From NCBI GenBank assembly GCA_016932595.1, contig JAFGCP010000309.1, positions 1-39,555 of the forward strand: a stretch of 39,555 bases of DNA, written 5' to 3'. This stretch comes from Deltaproteobacteria bacterium (GTDB taxonomy: Bacteria; Desulfobacterota; WTBG01; CAIYCZ01; CAIRTM01). Every line of letters starts with the position of its first letter. Position 1 is the first letter of the stretch. The position numbers and the translations under genes were made by a program. The notes under the pieces were generated by a model. The model ran no database searches. It saw only the letters and a program-made list of their open reading frames with translations, and was not told where the DNA came from. Below, one piece after another: positions 10,869 through 32,358 of this stretch.

Positions 10869-10979
10869 GCAATTAATTTTACGCTTTTAGCTCAAACCTT
10901 TACAAGGCCTTCTTTTTTTAATTCAATCTTGCACGGCGCACAGCGGTTGTGCTAGTAGTATGTCTGATCATGATTGATA

Positions 10980-11000
10980 CCCCCTGCAGGCTGCAGGGGG
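10980..11000. promoter_or_regulatory. Perfect GC-rich palindrome before the NtrC-type regulator gene
   Basis: CCCCCTGCAG (10980-10989) and CTGCAGGGGG (10991-11000) are exact inverted copies around a single G. It lies 27 bp upstream of the ATG at 11027. It has no T-tract, and a one-base loop makes an RNA hairpin poor, so a protein-binding operator (perhaps for autoregulation) is more likely than a terminator. The binding protein is unknown. Confidence 0.45.
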
Positions 11001-11026
11001 CAACTCAGTGCCGCTCGCCTAAGATT

Positions 11027-12379
11027 ATGAAAAAGCAGCATATTTTATTGATTGATGATGATGAGTCGACGCTCAGCATGCTGTCGAAATTTTTTCTCAG
11101 GCAGAGTGCGTTTGTCCTGGAAGAAAGCGATGGCACGCACGCGCTGCAGATATTGCAGGAGGATGTTTTCGATGTTGTGATAACCGACCTTATGCTTGGT
11201 TCTGTAACCGGCATCGATATACTGAAAAAAGTCAAAGAAGTGGCTCCTCATACCGAGGTGATTATAATAACCGGCAACAGTTCGGTTGACTCTGCGGTGC
11301 AGGCAATGAAGCAGGGGGCCTTTGATTATATCACGAAGCCTATAGACCTGACTGAGCTCAATCTTGTGGTGCAGAAGGCCTATGAGCGGCAGCGCCTTGT
11401 CGCCGAAGTCAAGAATTTGAGAAGCCAGGTTAATGACCTGTTCAAATTCGACAATATTGTTGCAACAAGTCCGGCAATGCAGAAACTTCTCGCTATGGTA
11501 AGGCGCGTGGCCAGGTCCACCTCAACGGTGCTCATTGAGGGCGAAAGCGGCACCGGCAAAGAGGTTATCGCACATGCCATTTACAATTACAGCCTTCGAA
11601 GCGACGGCCCGTTTGTGGCAATCAATTGCGGGGCACTGCCTGAAACCCTGCTTGAAAGCGAGCTTTTCGGCTATGTCAAGGGAGCATTCACCGGCGCCAA
11701 TCTCACGAAAAAAGGTCTTTTCGAAGAGGCCCATGGAGGCACCATATTTCTAGATGAAATCGGGGAAACCAGCCCGGCTTTTCAGGTGAAGCTGCTGCGT
11801 GTTCTTCAGGAAAATGAAATTCGGCGCGTCGGGGATACCAAGGATATCGTCATCGACGTCCGCGTGCTTGCTTCAAGCAATGTGCCGATCAAGCAGCTGG
11901 TGGACGAGGGGCGCTTCCGTCAGGACCTGTATTTCAGGCTCAATGTGATTCCTCTGTATATTCCGCCTATCGCGGAGCGCCGTGAGGATATTCTGCCGCT
12001 TGCCCTTTTTTTTGTAGAGCGATACTGCAAGCGGACAAACAGGAGCTTAATCGGGCTGTCCAGAGACGCGATGCACAAGCTTGAGTTGTACGACTGGCCC
12101 GGCAATGTGCGGGAGCTTGAAAATACTATCGAGCGGGCCATGATTCTTGCGGAGACGGATGAGGTCACAGCCGATGATATATTGCTTGAAAACTATAATG
12201 GCAAAAAAGCGCAGTCGTATAATTTCTCGCACATGACTCTGCGTGACCTTGAGCGCCGCCATATAGAGGAAATGCTTATTCACTGCGGATGGAATCAGCG
12301 CGAGGCTGCCAAAAGGCTCAGCATCGGCTATAATACGCTCTGGCGTAAAATTAAAGAGTATGGCCTTGAACGCGCATAA
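11027..12379 (+). CDS. Sigma-54-dependent response regulator, NtrC family
   Basis: A 450-residue activator of sigma-54 promoters. Receiver domain (about 4-118) with acceptor Asp54 (VVITDLMLG) and the conserved TGN and KP positions. The AAA+ domain is intact, with Walker A GESGTGKE, the sigma-54 contact loop GAFTGA, Walker [10 protein letters not shown] and R-finger segment ERREDILPL. The Fis-like HTH ([20 protein letters not shown]) is at the C-terminus. ATG 11027 fits the receiver start; an in-frame GTG at 10949 would read through the palindrome and is unlikely. No kinase gene is adjacent, so the partner is elsewhere. It converges with the sigma-factor gene. Target genes are unknown. Confidence 0.93.
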
Positions 12380-16965: not shown

Positions 16966-17688
16966 TCAGAGCGTTTTTTGAGTTTTGCTTTTCAGAAGTT
17001 CAAGGTTTGCGTTGACTTCTTCCTTCAAGGCAATGATTTTTTTTGCGCTCCAGCCGGCAAAGCGGGTCTGCGCCTTCACATAGCCCTCAACCGGCTGCGG
17101 GTTCGGGTCTTCACAGGTGATTTTATAGTATCCCTGGGCTATTTCATAGAGCGGGAAAACACGGCTTTCAACAGCTTTTCTCCCGACCTTCACCGTGTTT
17201 TCAGCCTCGAATCCCCATCCTACCGGGCAGGGGCAGAGGATATGCACAAAGGCTGATCCGGCGCAGTCCCAGGCTTTGCGAATTTTATCCACAAGGTCAA
17301 AGGGATGGCTCGGGCATGCTGTAGCGCTATAGTCGCAACCGCTTGCGCTTGCCACTGCCGGAAGTTTTTTCAGCATAACGGCCGTGTCAACCCTGCCGCC
17401 TGTGCATTCATTGTCGAAACAGATATGAAGAGCGCCCTCTTTTTTAGCAATGCTCAGCAGCGCAGGCTGTGAGCCTGCCGCAATGGCGCCGGAGTTAACA
17501 ATGATGCTTTCCTCCCACGGTATCTGCCATTTGGCCTGCTCTATATTCGCGCCGCTGCCTTCCAGCGCTTTGTAGACCTGACGTACGGCAAGTGCTACGC
17601 CGCAGCCTTTGCAGGCATTGTGACCTTTGGGCCCGAAATGCTCCTTGAAAGGCAGAAACTGTGCTGCATAAAGCGTGTATGTATCCAT
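16966..17688 (-). CDS. Shortened PorB-like protein lacking the TPP motif
   Basis: Clear homologue of the beta subunit of 2-oxoacid:ferredoxin oxidoreductases, but only 240 residues instead of about 290-320. Conserved parts are GHNACKGCG (22-30, the C-x2-C cluster pair), a shortened AaG segment (67-72), FDNE (91-94), PCPVGW (153-158, last cluster Cys region), the AVESRVFPLYE stretch and a PVEGYVKAQTRF end. The GDG...N segment that binds Mg-thiamine diphosphate is missing: about 20 residues link GAIAAG to DNE, where I would expect some 50-60. The third cluster cysteine (usually in a T-G-C) is also missing. The frame is intact, so this is not a recent deletion wreck. Its ATG overlaps the stop of the ferredoxin gene (TAATG), implying coupled translation. 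No PorA or PorG is in the window. A catalytic OFOR seems unlikely; an electron-transfer or scaffold role is possible. Confidence 0.85.
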   Translation of the reverse strand: MDTYTLYAAQFLPFKEHFGPKGHNACKGCGVALAVRQVYKALEGSGANIEQAKWQIPWEESIIVNSGAIAAGSQPALLSIAKKEGALHICFDNECTGGRVDTAVMLKKLPAVASASGCDYSATACPSHPFDLVDKIRKAWDCAGSAFVHILCPCPVGWGFEAENTVKVGRKAVESRVFPLYEIAQGYYKITCEDPNPQPVEGYVKAQTRFAGWSAKKIIALKEEVNANLELLKSKTQKTL

Positions 17689-18353: not shown

Positions 18354-19277
18354 ATGAAAATAGTCATTGCAGGCGCCGGAGCCATGGGGTGTTTGTTCGC
18401 AGGCTTGCTTGCGGGATCCAGGCATGAGCTGTGGCTGCTTGAAAAGGATGCCGGGAAGGTGGATGCGATACGCTCTGCAGGGCTCAGCATAGAAATCAGC
18501 GGCGCTGAGCCGGCAGTCTCAATGCCCTCTATAACGGCATATGCGGGTGATGCAGGCATTGCTGATGTGCTCGTGCTGCTCGTGAAAGCATATGATACCG
18601 CAGCTGCAGTACAGGCAGCCCTGCCGGTAATCGGCCCACAGACAACGGTACTGACGCTGCAGAACGGCCTGGGCAATATCGAGGCAATCACGCGCGCTGT
18701 GCCGCAGACTTTGCTGCTTGCAGGAACCACGGCACAGGGGGCAACACTTCTTGGCAATGGCAGGGTGCGGCATGCAGGCAGGGGCGAAACGGTTATCGGG
18801 CCCCTTGTGCCGGAAGGGGCCGTGAGGGCCCATGCCGTGCAGGAGATTTTTCAGAGCGCAGGCATTCCCGCAACAGTGGCTGAAGATATTCAGCCGGTTC
18901 TTTGGGGGAAACTGCTGGTAAATGCCGGCATCAACGCGCTGACTGCAATCATGCGGGTAAAAAACGGCAGGGTAGGGGATATGGAGCCTCTGCAGGCTGT
19001 TATGCGGCGGGCTGTTGCCGAGGGGGCTGCTGTGGCGCAACGGCTGGGAATATCTTTGCCCTATCCCGATCCGGTCGTTCGAACGACGGAAATCTGTTGC
19101 GCCACGGCTGAAAATTTTTCTTCCATGTATCAGGATATCAGCTTGGGCCGGCGTACTGAAATCGATAGCATCAACGGCGTTATTGTGGAATACGCCAATC
19201 GTCTTGGCCTTCCAGTGCCGGTCAACTGCATGCTGACCCGCATGGTGCACGCTCTTGAATGCCCTTCTGTAAGCTGA
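18354..19277 (+). CDS. panE: 2-dehydropantoate 2-reductase (ketopantoate reductase)
   Basis: NADPH-dependent reduction of ketopantoate to pantoate for coenzyme A synthesis. The 307-residue protein has the Rossmann start IVIAGAGAMGCLFAGLL, the KAYDT and LQNGLGN segments, the catalytic Lys in VLWGKLLVNAGINALTAI, and the C-terminal helical domain (QDISLGRRTEIDSINGVIV). GGGAGG precedes the ATG. It stands alone, divergent from the redox operon and convergent with mnmE. Other members of the family reduce related 2-keto acids, so the assignment rests on the motif set. Confidence 0.92.
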   Translation: MKIVIAGAGAMGCLFAGLLAGSRHELWLLEKDAGKVDAIRSAGLSIEISGAEPAVSMPSITAYAGDAGIADVLVLLVKAYDTAAAVQAALPVIGPQTTVLTLQNGLGNIEAITRAVPQTLLLAGTTAQGATLLGNGRVRHAGRGETVIGPLVPEGAVRAHAVQEIFQSAGIPATVAEDIQPVLWGKLLVNAGINALTAIMRVKNGRVGDMEPLQAVMRRAVAEGAAVAQRLGISLPYPDPVVRTTEICCATAENFSSMYQDISLGRRTEIDSINGVIVEYANRLGLPVPVNCMLTRMVHALECPSVS

Positions 19278-19499
19278 ATTTGCAGATACCCGCAACTTTT
19301 TTTCGGTGGTATGTGCCTGCCCCATAGCAGATGCAATCGGGAATTTTTCAGGAGCATTGCAGCGGGTGCTGTGGTGTGAATTGGGCAATGCATGCAGCCT
19401 TTTACGAAGGAGGTGCCGGGAGAATGTAAGGCTGCGACAGGATAGTGCGAGGCAGATATGATTGTTGTGCAGCAGGCGGCACAGGGCAGGCCCGGCGCA

Positions 19500-26103: not shown

Positions 26104-26264
26104 GCAGCAGGCGCTAAAAATTCTCATGGAACATGTTGTTTTGCCGGCAGCCCCCCCTAAATGCTGTTTGCCGCAGCCGGGATGCCTGTATTTTAAGATA
26201 TGCAACTCAAAGCCAATATGTGGTATGTTTAAACACATACAGCACTCTCAAGGATAGAGCTACC

Positions 26265-28556
26265 ATGGCTAGAGAAGATGACAGGCTCCAGCGCCAGATG
26301 CGTGAGGAGCAGAAGCGGCGCAAGCGGGAACAGAGTATTATTTTCATTGCCATACCGCTTGTCATTGCCCTTACGTCGCTGTTGATGTATGTGACCGGTC
26401 GCAGCGGCGAGGCTCTTCTGCCGCAGAATATTCTTGTATTCAGCCTCATCAATCTGAATGCTATTTTGCTGCTGCTGCTGCTTTTTCTTGTCGTGCGCAA
26501 TGTTGTGAAACTTTTTTTCGAGCGCAGAAGGGGCATTTTGGGGTCGAAGCTGCGCACAAAGCTGGTCATAGCTTTTGTGGGCCTGTCACTGGTGCCGACC
26601 ATGCTTCTTTTCTGGGTGTCCATCAGTTTCATAACCAATACGATTGAAAACTGGTTCAGCTTTAAAGTTGAGAATTCTCTGGAAGAGTCCCTCACGGTCG
26701 TTGATGCCTATTACCGGAACTCGTCCTCAAAAGCGCTTCACTACGCCCACCAGATTGCAGGAAGCATCGCAGCAAAAAAAATGCTCGGCGAGCGCGCCTC
26801 GGAGCCCTTATGGACTCTGGTTGCTGAAAAACAGTCCGAGTACGACCTTGGCGTGGTCGAGATATTTTCAGCCAGCGGAGCGCAGCTGGTCAAGGTTGCC
26901 CGTGCCGATGTGCCCGAAAAGGATTTTATAGGATCAGATGCGGCGCTTGTGCAGCTGGCTCTTGAAGGCAAGGAGGTTACCCGCATTCAGCCGGTTAACG
27001 ACGGAGATATCGTTCGGGGCGTTGTCCCGGTGCGGACTGCTGGCGGCAGGCAGGAAATAATCGGCGCCGTTATTGTAAATTTTTATAATCCCAAGAGCCT
27101 TGTCATCAAAATGGACGGGATCAACCGGGCGTATCAGGAATATAAACAGCTTAAAATATCCAAGGGACCCATCAAGGGAATTTATATTATTCTGCTGTCT
27201 GCAGTGACGCTGCTGATTATTTTTTCTGCTACGTGGTTCGGATTTCACCTTTCAAAGGTTATATCCGTTCCCATCAGTTCACTCGCGACTGCGACGCAGC
27301 AGATAGCTCAGGGGAATCTGGATGTTGTGATAGAGCCGTCGTCAGACGACGAAATCGGCAGCCTGATACAGTCGTTCAATAAAATGACCCATGACCTGAA
27401 AGCCAGCACGCAGCAGGTTGAATCAACAACCGGCAACCTGCGGGAAACCATTCGCGAGCTTGAGCACCGGCGGCTGTATATGGAGGTTTTGCTTGATAAT
27501 GTCGCCTCGGTCGTTGTTTCTACCGATCAGGACGGCGTCATAACGGCATTTAATAATTCAGCGGAGCGCATGTTCGCTACCACCTTTGCGCAGGCCGTCA
27601 ACCGCCCGTACGGTGAAGTGTTTGCCCATGAAGAGCTTGCGCCGCTGCGGGATTTTATAAGCGAGGTTCTTTCCTGCCGGCTTCGATCCGTCGAGCAGCA
27701 GATAGCCCTGTCGCTTGCCGACAGGATGGTGTTTTTGTACGTGCGCTCCAATATGTTTTTTGACGCCGACGGCACAAGCATGGGGCTTGTTCTGGTTGCC
27801 GAAGACCTCACCCAGCTGCAGCAGGCGCAGCGGGCATTTGCCTGGAAGGAAGTCGCTCGCAGGATCGCCCATGAGGTGAAGAACCCGCTGACGCCGATCA
27901 AGCTTTCAGCGCAGCGTTTGAAGAAGAAGTTTCAGCATCAGATATCCTCTGACGCGGGGGTGTTTGATGAATGCACAACGGTTATCATCAATCAGGTCGA
28001 TGAACTCAAGACCATGGTCAATGAGTTTTCAAGTTTTGCCCGCATGCCGGCAACCAATCCTCTGCCCAATGAGCTCAATGAAGTAGTTGAAGAGACCCTT
28101 GCATTGTACCGTGAAGCGCATAAAACCATTGTGTTCAGCGCCGTGCGAGAACTGGAGGCAATACGGTTTAATTTTGACCGGGACCAGATCAAGCGGGTGC
28201 TTATCAATCTGCTTGACAATGCGCTGCACTCCATGGAAAATGGCGGGACAGTAACGGTCAAGACAGCATATAATCAGGCCCTTGACGTGGTGATTATCGA
28301 GGTTGCGGACACCGGCAGCGGCATCCCGCCTGCGCTTAAAACCAAAATTTTTGATCCTTATTTTTCAACAAAAAAGGCCGGCACCGGCCTTGGCCTGGCG
28401 ATCGTCAATACGATAGTGTCAGATCACAATGGATTTATTCGCGTGCGCGACAATCATCCCAACGGCGCCTGCTTCATTATTCAGCTGCCGGTGTCACCGG
28501 TTATAAGTTTCAGAAGGGAAACATATAATGAAAAATTTAACAATACTGCTGGTTGA
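26265..28556 (+). CDS. ntrY: NtrY-like membrane sensor histidine kinase
   Basis: A 763-residue sensor. A charged N-terminus (RQMREEQKRRKREQ) is followed by three membrane helices (about 21-40, 53-75, 95-118), a periplasmic sensor region to about 300 and a fourth helix. Next come HAMP (about 330-380), PAS (about 410-510), HisKA with phosphoacceptor His536 (RRIAHEVKNPLTPIKLSAQR) and HATPase (NLLDNALHSM, DTGSGIPP, GTGLGLAIV). This is the NtrY layout, and the next gene is NtrX-like. ATG 26265 follows AAGGATAG; earlier in-frame codons would give an unrelated N-terminus. Its 3' end overlaps the NtrX-LpxC gene by 29 nt. Its ligand is unknown; NtrYX systems elsewhere respond to redox, nitrogen or envelope state. 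Confidence 0.92.
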   Translation: MAREDDRLQRQMREEQKRRKREQSIIFIAIPLVIALTSLLMYVTGRSGEALLPQNILVFSLINLNAILLLLLLFLVVRNVVKLFFERRRGILGSKLRTKLVIAFVGLSLVPTMLLFWVSISFITNTIENWFSFKVENSLEESLTVVDAYYRNSSSKALHYAHQIAGSIAAKKMLGERASEPLWTLVAEKQSEYDLGVVEIFSASGAQLVKVARADVPEKDFIGSDAALVQLALEGKEVTRIQPVNDGDIVRGVVPVRTAGGRQEIIGAVIVNFYNPKSLVIKMDGINRAYQEYKQLKISKGPIKGIYIILLSAVTLLIIFSATWFGFHLSKVISVPISSLATATQQIAQGNLDVVIEPSSDDEIGSLIQSFNKMTHDLKASTQQVESTTGNLRETIRELEHRRLYMEVLLDNVASVVVSTDQDGVITAFNNSAERMFATTFAQAVNRPYGEVFAHEELAPLRDFISEVLSCRLRSVEQQIALSLADRMVFLYVRSNMFFDADGTSMGLVLVAEDLTQLQQAQRAFAWKEVARRIAHEVKNPLTPIKLSAQRLKKKFQHQISSDAGVFDECTTVIINQVDELKTMVNEFSSFARMPATNPLPNELNEVVEETLALYREAHKTIVFSAVRELEAIRFNFDRDQIKRVLINLLDNALHSMENGGTVTVKTAYNQALDVVIIEVADTGSGIPPALKTKIFDPYFSTKKAGTGLGLAIVNTIVSDHNGFIRVRDNHPNGACFIIQLPVSPVISFRRETYNEKFNNTAG

Positions 28557-30690
28557 CGATGAACCTTCCATTGTGAATTCGCTTCGCGGCAGTCTTGAGG
28601 ACGAAGGGCATATACTGCTTACGGCTTCTGACGGCACCCGAGCCCTCGAGATCGTGCAATCTCATCCCGTGGACATTATTTTTCTCGATATCTGGCTTCC
28701 CGGGATGGACGGCATTCAAACCCTCAAAGCTGTCAGGGATTTTGACAGTGCTATAGAAGTTGTTATGATGACCGGTCACGGCACGGTGAACACGGCGGTT
28801 CAGGCCGTCAAGCACGGCGCCTTCGATTTTCTTGAAAAACCTTTTTCGTTTGATGCTGTTGTCGATGTAATAAGAAAAATAAAAGAAAAGCAGCAGGTGT
28901 CCGGTAAAGGCTCAGCAGGATCGAAAGCAGCGGACAGCAGCGGAGAACTGCCTGATTTGTCCGGAGAGAGCGATGCCATTTTAAGGGTTATGGACCAGAT
29001 CAAAAGCGCTGCATCCGGCACAGGGCATATTCTGCTTTTGGGAGAGATCGGGACGGGTAAGGAGCATGCGGCCCAGCTGATCCACAGCGGAGCGGGATTT
29101 AAGAAAAAAACCTTTACGAAGATCAACTGCGCTTTTTTGACGCCTGCTGAGCTCGAGGCAAAACTGTTCGGCGAAAACCAGCCCGGCAGGCAGGGCCTGC
29201 TGACCGGAGGGCTTTCAGGTGTGCTTTTCCTGCAGGCGCTTGATACTGCCCCGCCCGACATGCACAAGCGGCTTGCCGACCAGCTCGGCCAGCTGCTGCA
29301 GACGGGAGAAGGCGGGCTGCGTGTCGTCGCAGCGACGATTAAAACAGCGCCTTACGGAGTTTTGAAAAAGGCCCTTGCCGAGAGCTTTCAGCATACGATA
29401 CTGCTGCCGCCCCTGCGCGAGCGCCGCAGCGATATACCCGTTATGCTCAATTCATTTCTCGCCCGGTTTTGCAGGGAATATGGCTGCAGGGAAAAGCACT
29501 TTGCTGACGAGGCTCTTGAACTTCTGGTAAACTATGATTGGCCGGGCAATGTTAAGGAACTGAAGAACCTCACTGAAAAAATGATTGTTTCGGTGCCGAC
29601 AATAACCATTTCAGCCCAGGATTTGCCCTCGACGATACGCGAAGAGGCCCATCCTGTCTTCTCCCGCTCCTATGAGCACTTCTCAAGCATGGCAGAGGCG
29701 GAAGTTGCCTGGCGCAAAAATTATCTGCTGCATCATTTGCGCAAAAACGATCGCAATCTGTCAAGGACAGCTGCCGCAATACATATCAGGGAGAAGGAGC
29801 TGAAAAAATTAATCAAAGAATACGGCATTGCTTTTGCGAAAGAAAATCCGTCAGGTAAACGCTTTCAGAGAACGCTCAAACGGGCCATGGTGGTGAGCGG
29901 GCAGGGGCTGCATTCGGGAGACAAAACAGGGCTTATTTTAACGCCGCTGCCTCCCGGCAGCGGCATAGTATTCGGCAATATTTCAAGCGAAGATACGATT
30001 CCGGCATCCATTGAGTATGTGGTGTCGACCGACTATTCAACGTGTCTGCAGAATACCAACTCAACAGCCCGCACGATAGAGCATTGCCTCGCAACGCTGC
30101 ATTCCTATCGCATCACAAATCTTATGATCAAGATCAATAATGAAGTGCCCATCATGGACGGTTCTGCCGTTGATTTTTGTAAGATGATTGAGGATGCGGG
30201 TATTGAAGAGCAGGATGCTCCTGCCGATGACATCGTCCTTACCGAAAAATTTGTTATCGGTGACGTCGATGGCTCTAAAAAATACATGATAGTCGAGCCG
30301 GCGGAGCGATTTTCAATTCATTATATGCTGCAGTACCCAAAACCGGTCGGCCGGCAGGAATACACCTTTATCATGAACGACGAGGAATCCTTTAAGAAGG
30401 AGATTGCTCCGGCGCGCACATTCGGCTTTTTACGCGATATTGAGGCGCTTCAGGAGCGGGGGTTGGCAAGCGGCGGCAAGCTCAATAATTTTATTCTTAT
30501 CGACAATGAGAAGATTGTGAACACCGAGCTCCGGTTTCCCGATGAATTTGTGCGGCATAAAATTCTAGACATGATAGGAGACTTTTATTTGCTGGGCCGC
30601 CCCATCCGCGCACGGATAACTGCAAATATGACAGGGCATACCGACAATACAACGATGGTTCGTATGATTCGAGACCGCATGCATCTCTGA
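28528..30690 (+). CDS. NtrX-like response regulator fused to LpxC deacetylase
   Basis: One uninterrupted 720-residue frame. Residues 4-118: receiver with acceptor Asp54 (FLDIWLPGMDG), TGHG and EKPF, as in NtrX. Residues about 140-375: sigma-54-type AAA+ domain with Walker A GEIGTGKE (172-179), but the GAFTGA loop is absent and Walker B DE is replaced by Q236-A237 (VLFLQALD); LRERRSDIP and DWPGNVKEL remain. About 400-440: Fis-like HTH (LSRTAAAIHIREKELKKLIK). Residues 447-720: complete LpxC, UDP-3-O-acyl-GlcNAc deacetylase, the committed step of lipid A synthesis. It has EVPIMDGSA, catalytic Glu518, Zn ligands His519, His677 and Asp681, and His704; spacings match E. coli E78/H79/H238/D242/H265 to within one residue. 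AAGGGA precedes the ATG inside the end of ntrY. Probably phosphorylated by that kinase; whether this alters LpxC activity is inference. Confidence 0.93.
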   Translation: MKNLTILLVDDEPSIVNSLRGSLEDEGHILLTASDGTRALEIVQSHPVDIIFLDIWLPGMDGIQTLKAVRDFDSAIEVVMMTGHGTVNTAVQAVKHGAFDFLEKPFSFDAVVDVIRKIKEKQQVSGKGSAGSKAADSSGELPDLSGESDAILRVMDQIKSAASGTGHILLLGEIGTGKEHAAQLIHSGAGFKKKTFTKINCAFLTPAELEAKLFGENQPGRQGLLTGGLSGVLFLQALDTAPPDMHKRLADQLGQLLQTGEGGLRVVAATIKTAPYGVLKKALAESFQHTILLPPLRERRSDIPVMLNSFLARFCREYGCREKHFADEALELLVNYDWPGNVKELKNLTEKMIVSVPTITISAQDLPSTIREEAHPVFSRSYEHFSSMAEAEVAWRKNYLLHHLRKNDRNLSRTAAAIHIREKELKKLIKEYGIAFAKENPSGKRFQRTLKRAMVVSGQGLHSGDKTGLILTPLPPGSGIVFGNISSEDTIPASIEYVVSTDYSTCLQNTNSTARTIEHCLATLHSYRITNLMIKINNEVPIMDGSAVDFCKMIEDAGIEEQDAPADDIVLTEKFVIGDVDGSKKYMIVEPAERFSIHYMLQYPKPVGRQEYTFIMNDEESFKKEIAPARTFGFLRDIEALQERGLASGGKLNNFILIDNEKIVNTELRFPDEFVRHKILDMIGDFYLLGRPIRARITANMTGHTDNTTMVRMIRDRMHL

Positions 30691-30773: not shown

Positions 30774-31463
30774 ATGAGCAATTCCCTGAATGTTGAGAAG
30801 AGCAGCGCAGCGGGTCCGGGTTCTTCTTCACGCCGCGAGCCTGACCAGATGGGCGCCGGCCGTACCCGCCTCTACCTTGCGCGGCATGGCGAGCTTGTCA
30901 CCTCCCATGAATGGCGGTATGTGGGCCATTTGGATGTAGCGCTCAATGATAAAGGACGGGCGCAGATAGCCCGCCTTGCCCGCAGGCTGAGCATGGAAAA
31001 AATAGATGTACTGCTGTCAAGCGACCTTATGCGCACGGTCGAGTCCGCCTGGATCATCGGCGCAGCCATCGGTCTTGAGCCGGCTGCTGAGCCTGCTTTC
31101 AGGGAGATACATCTTGGCCAGTGGGAGGGCTTGACGCGCGAGGAGATTACGGAGCGTTTTACGCAGGAGTTTGATCTTCGTTCCGCCGATATAGCCGGCT
31201 ACAGGATACAGGGCGGGGAGAGCTTTGCCGACCTGCGCGACCGCGTCATACCGCGGCTGACAGCCTGCCTTGATGAGCACCAGGGCAGGAATGTGCTGCT
31301 GGTGGCCCATGGAGGAGTGAACCGCATTATTCTGTGTCATGCCCTTGGGCTTGATTTAAACATGCTGCCCCGCATCGATCAGGCATATGGCTGCCTGAAT
31401 ATCATAGATTTTTTTGACGGCGTCCCGGTCGTTCACCTGATGAATGAAACGCCGTTTGATTGA
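30774..31463 (+). CDS. Histidine phosphatase superfamily protein
   Basis: A 229-residue phosphatase of the phosphoglycerate-mutase-like clan. Residues about 33 onward show LYLARHGE with the nucleophilic His, the DVALNDKG segment, SSDLMRTVESA, the acid/base region FREIHLGQWEGLTREE and the second catalytic His in VAHGGVNR. The pattern is closest to CobC-like (alpha-ribazole phosphatase) and fructose-2,6-bisphosphatase-type members, but the substrate cannot be assigned and no cobalamin genes are near. A polar 30-residue N-terminus precedes the domain; a later start at ATG 30849 is possible. It follows the LpxC fusion by 83 nt, and its 3' end overlaps the next gene by 20 nt. Confidence 0.85.
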   Translation: MSNSLNVEKSSAAGPGSSSRREPDQMGAGRTRLYLARHGELVTSHEWRYVGHLDVALNDKGRAQIARLARRLSMEKIDVLLSSDLMRTVESAWIIGAAIGLEPAAEPAFREIHLGQWEGLTREEITERFTQEFDLRSADIAGYRIQGGESFADLRDRVIPRLTACLDEHQGRNVLLVAHGGVNRIILCHALGLDLNMLPRIDQAYGCLNIIDFFDGVPVVHLMNETPFD

Positions 31464-32358
31464 CTGGCTGCCGCCTGCGTATGCCTTGCCGCGGGGAGCG
31501 GGTTCGGCTGCCCGCGGTTCTGTAGCGGAAGATGCTCGTGGCAGCCTCTTGGGACACTGTATGGAACAGGCCGTTTATATACACTGCAGCGATCAGCTGC
31601 GCTACCTGAGTGATGATTTTACGCGGCTGTATTTCGGAGCGGAATTTTGTGAGCGCCTGATACCGCCGCGGCTTGAGCTTCAAACGGCGCTGCGCAGCGC
31701 CCGCGAAAGATCACTCGGCTTTACCTTTATGACCCCGTTTGTGACAAACCGGGGACTTGAGCAGCTCGAAGAGCTGCTGGCCGTGCTTGAGCAGAGCCTG
31801 CCTGATGCTGAAGTTGTTGTGAATGACTGGGGGGTGCTTCAGCTGCTGCGCAGCGAGCATCCCCGGCTCAGGCCCGTGCTCGGTCGGCTGCTCAACAAGA
31901 GCAAGCGCGGTCCGCGCCTTATGAATATTTTCGAGCAGCTTCCCGCCGAAACAAAGAGCTACTTTCAGGGCTCCAACCTTGACGTGCCGGCAGCCGTCCG
32001 CTTTCTGGCGCAGCAGGGCATCAGCCGCGTGGAGTTTGACAATCTTCTGCAGGGCCTGAACCTTGAGGGCACGGATGCAGGCCTTCACAAGTCGCTCTAT
32101 GTACCGTTTGCTTTTATTTCCGCAACCCGCTTCTGCCTGAGCGCCAACTGCGATGATCCGGTAAAGATGGGCTCAATCGGCATTTTTCCCTGCGGCAGAG
32201 AATGCCTGAAGTACAGCTTCAACCTGTATAATCCGGTCATGACCCTGCCGCTTATACGGCGCGGCAATGCTGTTTTTTTTATACATGAAACCATACCCGA
32301 TGCTGTTACCAGGCATCAGGTCGACCGGATTGTCGTGCAGCCGGAGCTGCCGGTCTGA
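31444..32358 (+). CDS. UbiV-like peptidase U32 family protein
   Basis: A 304-residue protein, or 265 residues from ATG 31561, where GGGA lies upstream and the family similarity begins. VVVNDWGVLQLL and LGRLLNKSKRGPR are typical of the U32 branch that contains UbiV. Four Cys fit the UbiV [4Fe-4S] pattern: C69 (FGAEFC), C236, C250 and C254 (C-x13-C-x3-C), with an extra C231. E. coli UbiV uses C39, C180, C193 and C197. Known U32 proteins act in oxygen-independent hydroxylation of quinone precursors (UbiUV) or of RNA (RlhA, TrhP), not as classical proteases. A UbiU-like gene follows at 2 nt. No SCP2-type UbiT or other quinone genes are present, so the substrate is open. Confidence 0.7.
   Translation: MKRRLIDWLPPAYALPRGAGSAARGSVAEDARGSLLGHCMEQAVYIHCSDQLRYLSDDFTRLYFGAEFCERLIPPRLELQTALRSARERSLGFTFMTPFVTNRGLEQLEELLAVLEQSLPDAEVVVNDWGVLQLLRSEHPRLRPVLGRLLNKSKRGPRLMNIFEQLPAETKSYFQGSNLDVPAAVRFLAQQGISRVEFDNLLQGLNLEGTDAGLHKSLYVPFAFISATRFCLSANCDDPVKMGSIGIFPCGRECLKYSFNLYNPVMTLPLIRRGNAVFFIHETIPDAVTRHQVDRIVVQPELPV

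Follow-up and report, generated by a model that had tools for sequence, protein, structure and literature searches.

LpxC commits the cell to lipid A; as an essential point at which lipopolysaccharide synthesis is controlled, it is also targeted by antibiotics, and the controls known for it are in the main proteolysis and transcription. Response regulators that act through an enzyme are a known kind, CheB and PorX among them. PorX is described as an enzyme-output response regulator in PMC11320123. A review from 2025 on how lipid A is regulated (PMC12444477) attributes the control of LpxC in other organisms to proteolysis, LapB homologues and transcription, and a search of it for fusions and for Desulfo- names gave no hit. 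The NtrYX two-component system has been tied to the cell envelope and to lpxC expression in alphaproteobacteria (PMC7240162), and it lowers the lpxC transcript in Rhodobacter and Caulobacter (PMC7240162, PMC12444477). A fusion between a response regulator and LpxC was not described in the literature searched, the coverage of which leaves out many subscription journals, and LpxC as the output of a response regulator is, as far as we found, undescribed.

A response regulator and LpxC in one reading frame

The window (the whole 39,555-nt stretch of DNA that was analysed) contains a gene that encodes, in one uninterrupted frame, a receiver (REC), an AAA+/HTH region resembling that of NtrX, and LpxC over its full domain (Table 1). 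An earlier note, made from the letters of this DNA, had read receiver and LpxC as a single protein, and the open reading frame, the Pfam matches and the same fused frame in relatives of the class all bear this out. The Pfam matches were Response_reg (residues 6-115, 2e-30), Sigma54_activat (residues 145-253, 3e-15, over part of the model only), AAA_lid_14 (residues 297-375, 5e-23) and LpxC (residues 447-714, 4e-84, with positions 1-266 of the 268 of PF03331 covered). Against TIGR00325 the protein scored 265.6 bits, above the cut-off of 187.25, which makes it a member of the LpxC family. The chain ends six residues past the LpxC domain and carries no FabZ domain. The Shine-Dalgarno-like AAGGGA in front of the start codon is a plausible ribosome-binding site.

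Table 1. Features of the fused gene and of the adjoining kinase gene, with positions in the window.
Feature	Position	Strand	Basis
NtrY-like membrane sensor histidine kinase: NtrY_N, HAMP, PAS, HisKA (VARRIAHEVKNPLTPI H-box), HATPase_c	26133..28556	+	Pfam, translation
AAGGGA, Shine-Dalgarno-like, 8 nt 5' of the ATG of the fused gene	28514..28519	+	sequence read directly
Response regulator-LpxC fusion protein, 720 aa	28528..30690, stop codon included	+	ORF translation, Pfam, class relatives
Receiver domain, residues 6-115; D10, D11, D54, T82, K104	28543..28872	+	Pfam and alignment
Degenerate NtrX-like AAA+, residues 145-375	28960..29652	+	Pfam, NCBIfam, alignment
Remnant Fis-type HTH and linker, residues about 380-440, without HTH_8 match	29665..29847	+	profile scans
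LpxC deacetylase domain, residues 447-714; E518, H519, T631, H677, D681, H704	29866..30669	+	Pfam, NCBIfam, alignment

Both active sites are intact, as the earlier note had held for Asp54 of the receiver and for E518, H519, H677, D681 and H704 of the enzyme. In the receiver alignment, the acidic pair D10/D11, D54, T82 and K104 are all present, and D10, D11, D54 and K104 are found in every fusion whose alignment has those columns. The five enzyme residues, together with T631 and N665, are invariant in an alignment of 108 sequences (54 fused and 54 stand-alone LpxC), and they are spaced as in the Aquifex and E. coli enzymes. An AlphaFold model of the 720-aa protein, built on a seven-sequence input, reached a pLDDT of 54 and a pTM of 0.31, too poor for reading an interface between receiver and LpxC.

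A sigma-54-type AAA+ domain and an HTH had also been claimed. These regions can be located, but they are degenerate and should not be taken for a functional activator. All 22 members that contain an AAA+ region have lost GAFTGA, the Walker-B Glu and the RxDL arginine finger and have Lys in place of the sensor-II Arg, whereas the Walker-A Lys is kept in the 22 (GEIGTGKE in the source protein). A scan of seven members for HTH_8 found nothing up to an E of 1. The marks of a sigma-54 enhancer-binding activator (GAFTGA, Walker-B Asp-Glu, arginine finger and HTH_8) are therefore lacking in the fusion. The weak scores are not a problem of the tool, since the ordinary NtrC-type response regulator encoded at 10949-12379 of this window matches both models strongly, Sigma54_activat at 2e-69 and HTH_8 at 4e-14. 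We propose that the AAA+ and HTH of the source lineage are a relic or a passive spacer.

A sequencing error hiding a stop codon or frameshift is excluded by independent assemblies of the class. The same fused frame occurs in 12 of its genomes, in proteins of 630-768 aa, and in relatives at 56-84% identity the frame is open over its full length. Comparison with the nearest relative (L048, 84% identical) gave dN/dS values of 0.04 for the receiver, 0.14 for the AAA+ region, 0.09 for the HTH and linker and 0.04 for LpxC, so that every segment is under purifying selection. The shared frame and this selection together show that the fusion is not a sequencing artefact. In one metagenome-assembled genome (G002; L015 / L049), the fused frame measures just 630 aa because it leaves out most of the receiver, which lies in another frame, although tblastn matches residues 1-720; this is probably a frameshift or sequencing error in that assembly.

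Elsewhere in the window, a 304-aa protein without a Pfam family is encoded at 31444-32358, with a histidine phosphatase gene on one side and a U32 peptidase gene on the other, and two further ORFs without Pfam matches (18522-19388 and 16969-17688) lie in housekeeping surroundings (NuoE/F-like, MnmE, YidC, RnpA).

Copy number, distribution and origin of the fusion

A search of the source genome (3.87 Mb, 76% complete) for a separate lpxC, the check proposed in the earlier note, found none besides the fusion; LpxA is also encoded there. In the GTDB class, the fusion is the only lpxC in 12 of the 17 genomes (the source and 11 more). Four of the remaining five, from two other families, carry a stand-alone lpxC, and none was found in the fifth, which is incomplete (59%).

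In a sample of 395 genomes of the phylum, LpxC came in two kinds, frames of about 300 aa and weaker-scoring frames mostly of more than 400 aa. The 79 genomes with a weaker-scoring LpxC were searched again, about 56 of them having frames above 400 aa; representatives were fetched from every family with such frames, and a receiver was confirmed in all. This domain-architecture search, also suggested earlier, yielded 54 different fusions of receiver and LpxC, spread over 24 families of Desulfobacterota. They are built in two ways, as REC-AAA-HTH-LpxC (n = 22) or as REC-LpxC (n = 32; about 440 aa, no AAA+ or HTH). Among 119 Acidobacteriota, REC-LpxC was found in two (L145 and L147), the other long LpxC frames there being spurious, and among 113 Myxococcota no receiver was present in any long-frame LpxC locus fetched.

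Very long stop-to-stop frames in high-GC genomes mimic kinase-receiver-LpxC fusions (L103, L104, L105), a warning for automatic counts of domain architectures. Candidates of 1007-1423 aa in G071, G106 and G190 were rejected: their N-terminal parts come from reading through shadow frames in DNA of high GC content, and any kinase present is encoded by a gene of its own. One genome (G394) has two REC-LpxC genes about 130 kb apart (L122 and L123). Another (G062) has one fused and one stand-alone lpxC (L114 and L115), with contamination (5%) a possible source, and an NtrY-like kinase about 0.9 kb downstream of the stand-alone gene.

In the LpxC tree, all fused domains lie on one side of a branch with 100/100 support, with no stand-alone sequence inside. 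Since they form one clade, the fusion probably arose once. One fused case (G145) was seen in family f53, the other sampled members of which have stand-alone enzymes, and it nests in the clade of the source family, which makes horizontal transfer probable in this instance. The NtrC-type linker helix is kept in several REC-LpxC forms (e.g. L117, L123 and L145), and L145 also keeps what appear to be the first residues of the AAA+ domain. The persistence of these remnants speaks for an origin of REC-LpxC from an NtrX-LpxC ancestor by deletion of AAA+ and HTH. Some REC-LpxC lineages, however, branch first in the tree, so that branching order and linker remnants point opposite ways on which architecture is older.

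The fused LpxC also has peculiarities of its own. Its C-terminal tail measures 0-14 aa, against 31-40 aa in 33 of the 54 stand-alone enzymes. Position 706, two past the last catalytic His (window 30643-30645), is Asp or Glu in most fused proteins and Leu in 53 of the 54 stand-alone ones; position 549 is mostly Asp or Glu in the former and Pro in 42 of the latter. The acidic residue 706 is a clade marker near the active site and possibly part of a contact between receiver and enzyme.

An NtrY-like kinase often accompanies the fusion

The fused gene overlaps the upstream kinase gene, as had been noted, by 29 nt. The kinase matches NtrY_N (1.5e-5) and has an intact H-box (HEVKNPLTPI) and intact ATP-binding motifs; it is a putative NtrY-type partner. 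Of the 47 non-redundant loci in which the upstream sequence was long enough to tell, about 18 have the gene for such a kinase immediately in front of the fusion, and both architectures are represented among them. When gene neighbourhoods were clustered, the kinase cluster comprised 19 loci and every other cluster at most five; the kinase is the only widely recurrent neighbour of fused lpxC. An NtrY_N kinase, one per genome, was found in 27 of the 33 fused genomes tested and was not detected in the other six of this set.

What the receiver may do to the enzyme

The core common to all members is a receiver joined to LpxC, the transcription-factor parts are decayed or gone and both active sites are kept, so that control of the enzyme by phosphorylation is the simplest model. 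We consider it fairly likely, from sequence comparison, that LpxC has taken the place of the output domain in the NtrX-type regulator of a two-component system and that phosphorylation would act on the enzyme, not on transcription. The NtrY-like membrane kinase would sense an envelope or redox cue and autophosphorylate, and we infer that it passes its phosphate to Asp54. The receiver would then alter the attached LpxC, most likely in its activity, although an effect on stability or membrane recruitment is possible, and lipid A flux would thereby be set post-translationally. Direct two-component control of LpxC, as put forward in the earlier note, is in this respect the best-supported reading, with a sole LpxC, a phylum-wide single origin, a preserved phosphorylation site, a linked NtrY-type kinase and forms that lack AAA+ and HTH; the effect of phosphorylation on LpxC is the part that we infer. 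Wiring from NtrYX to LpxC is plausible because NtrYX lowers the lpxC transcript in Rhodobacter and Caulobacter, and a response regulator of Desulfovibrio vulgaris targets lpxC as well (PMC3333781); by this analogy the fusion would be a short cut for a connection already made elsewhere through gene regulation.

Phosphorylation could instead set the abundance of LpxC and leave catalysis alone, the receiver being a conditional degradation switch that replaces a missing C-terminal FtsH degron. The title of a reference cited in PMC3333781 states that the C-terminal end of E. coli LpxC is needed for degradation by FtsH, LpxC is controlled elsewhere mainly by turnover (PMC12444477), and the tail of roughly 35 residues that most stand-alone relatives possess is missing from the fused enzyme. 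LapB also gave no match above cut-off in the GTDB class, where sub-cut-off matches resemble TPR noise. The loss of the tail is, however, also compatible with control of activity, the class members with a stand-alone LpxC are likewise without LapB, and the degron is missing from alpha- and beta-proteobacterial LpxC as well (PMC12444477); we regard a degradation switch as unlikely. Somewhat less probable again is a receiver that serves for dimerisation or localisation only, as a tether without phospho-control. More than half of the loci have no kinase next to the fusion and six of the 33 genomes gave no NtrY_N match, both of which count against phospho-control; dimerisation by itself can be enough to conserve a receiver, and a soluble enzyme can be joined to a dimerising domain for structural reasons. 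Yet a complete phosphorylation site is kept in essentially all members, receiver and enzyme have equally low dN/dS values, and most genomes contain a kinase, linked or not.

The retention of an NtrX-like REC-AAA-HTH region in 22 distinct members, under purifying selection, could mean that the protein still regulates transcription and carries LpxC along as a passenger, or has it as a second function. This we hold to be very improbable: GAFTGA, the Walker-B Glu and the arginine finger are lost and HTH_8 is unmatched, in the very window where the NtrC-type regulator keeps strong matches to both models, and AAA+ and HTH are missing altogether from the 32 other members. It is, finally, just as improbable that the chain is cleaved or independently initiated and that free LpxC does the work. 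An in-frame ATG (M453) does lie just inside the LpxC domain, but a start there would cut off the conserved Q447-R452, M453 is not conserved in L050/L051, and the fused state has been kept across the phylum from what appears to be one origin, with linkers under purifying selection. Control of LpxC through its receiver therefore remains the reading that we prefer. With a receiver attached to the only LpxC and kept across 24 families, the supply of outer-membrane lipid may be under the direct control of a membrane sensor, and the REC-LpxC form of about 440 aa offers a simple system for in vitro testing of receiver control. The fusion also appears to record the passage from a transcription factor to an enzyme regulator, its DNA-binding and ATPase parts being decayed or gone depending on the lineage.

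Comparison with described systems

With stand-alone LpxC (TIGR00325, PF03331) the fusion shares the full enzyme domain, the zinc and catalytic residues and a score above the cut-off; it differs in its N-terminal receiver and NtrX remnant, the lack of a C-terminal tail, the acidic residue 706 and the usually acidic residue 549. NtrX of the NtrYX system is its best regulator match (4e-73 to NF051870; 2e-53 to the solved NtrX chain, PDB 5M7N), and an NtrY-like kinase adjoins it, but its 247 bits against NF051870 fall below the cut-off of 600, Walker B of the AAA+ domain is lost, the HTH is decayed and the output is an enzyme. The bifunctional LpxC-FabZ enzyme (NF009667/PRK13188) likewise holds LpxC within a fused polypeptide, although the partner there is a C-terminal dehydratase and not a signalling domain, and the fusion reaches only 216 bits against the 465 of that family. 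In Desulfovibrio vulgaris, a related sulfate reducer, the response regulator DVU2934 has lpxC as its single target (PMC3333781), but there the two are separate proteins and control is exerted at the promoter. In having a receiver fused to a catalytic domain, the protein described here resembles the enzyme-output response regulators CheB and PorX.
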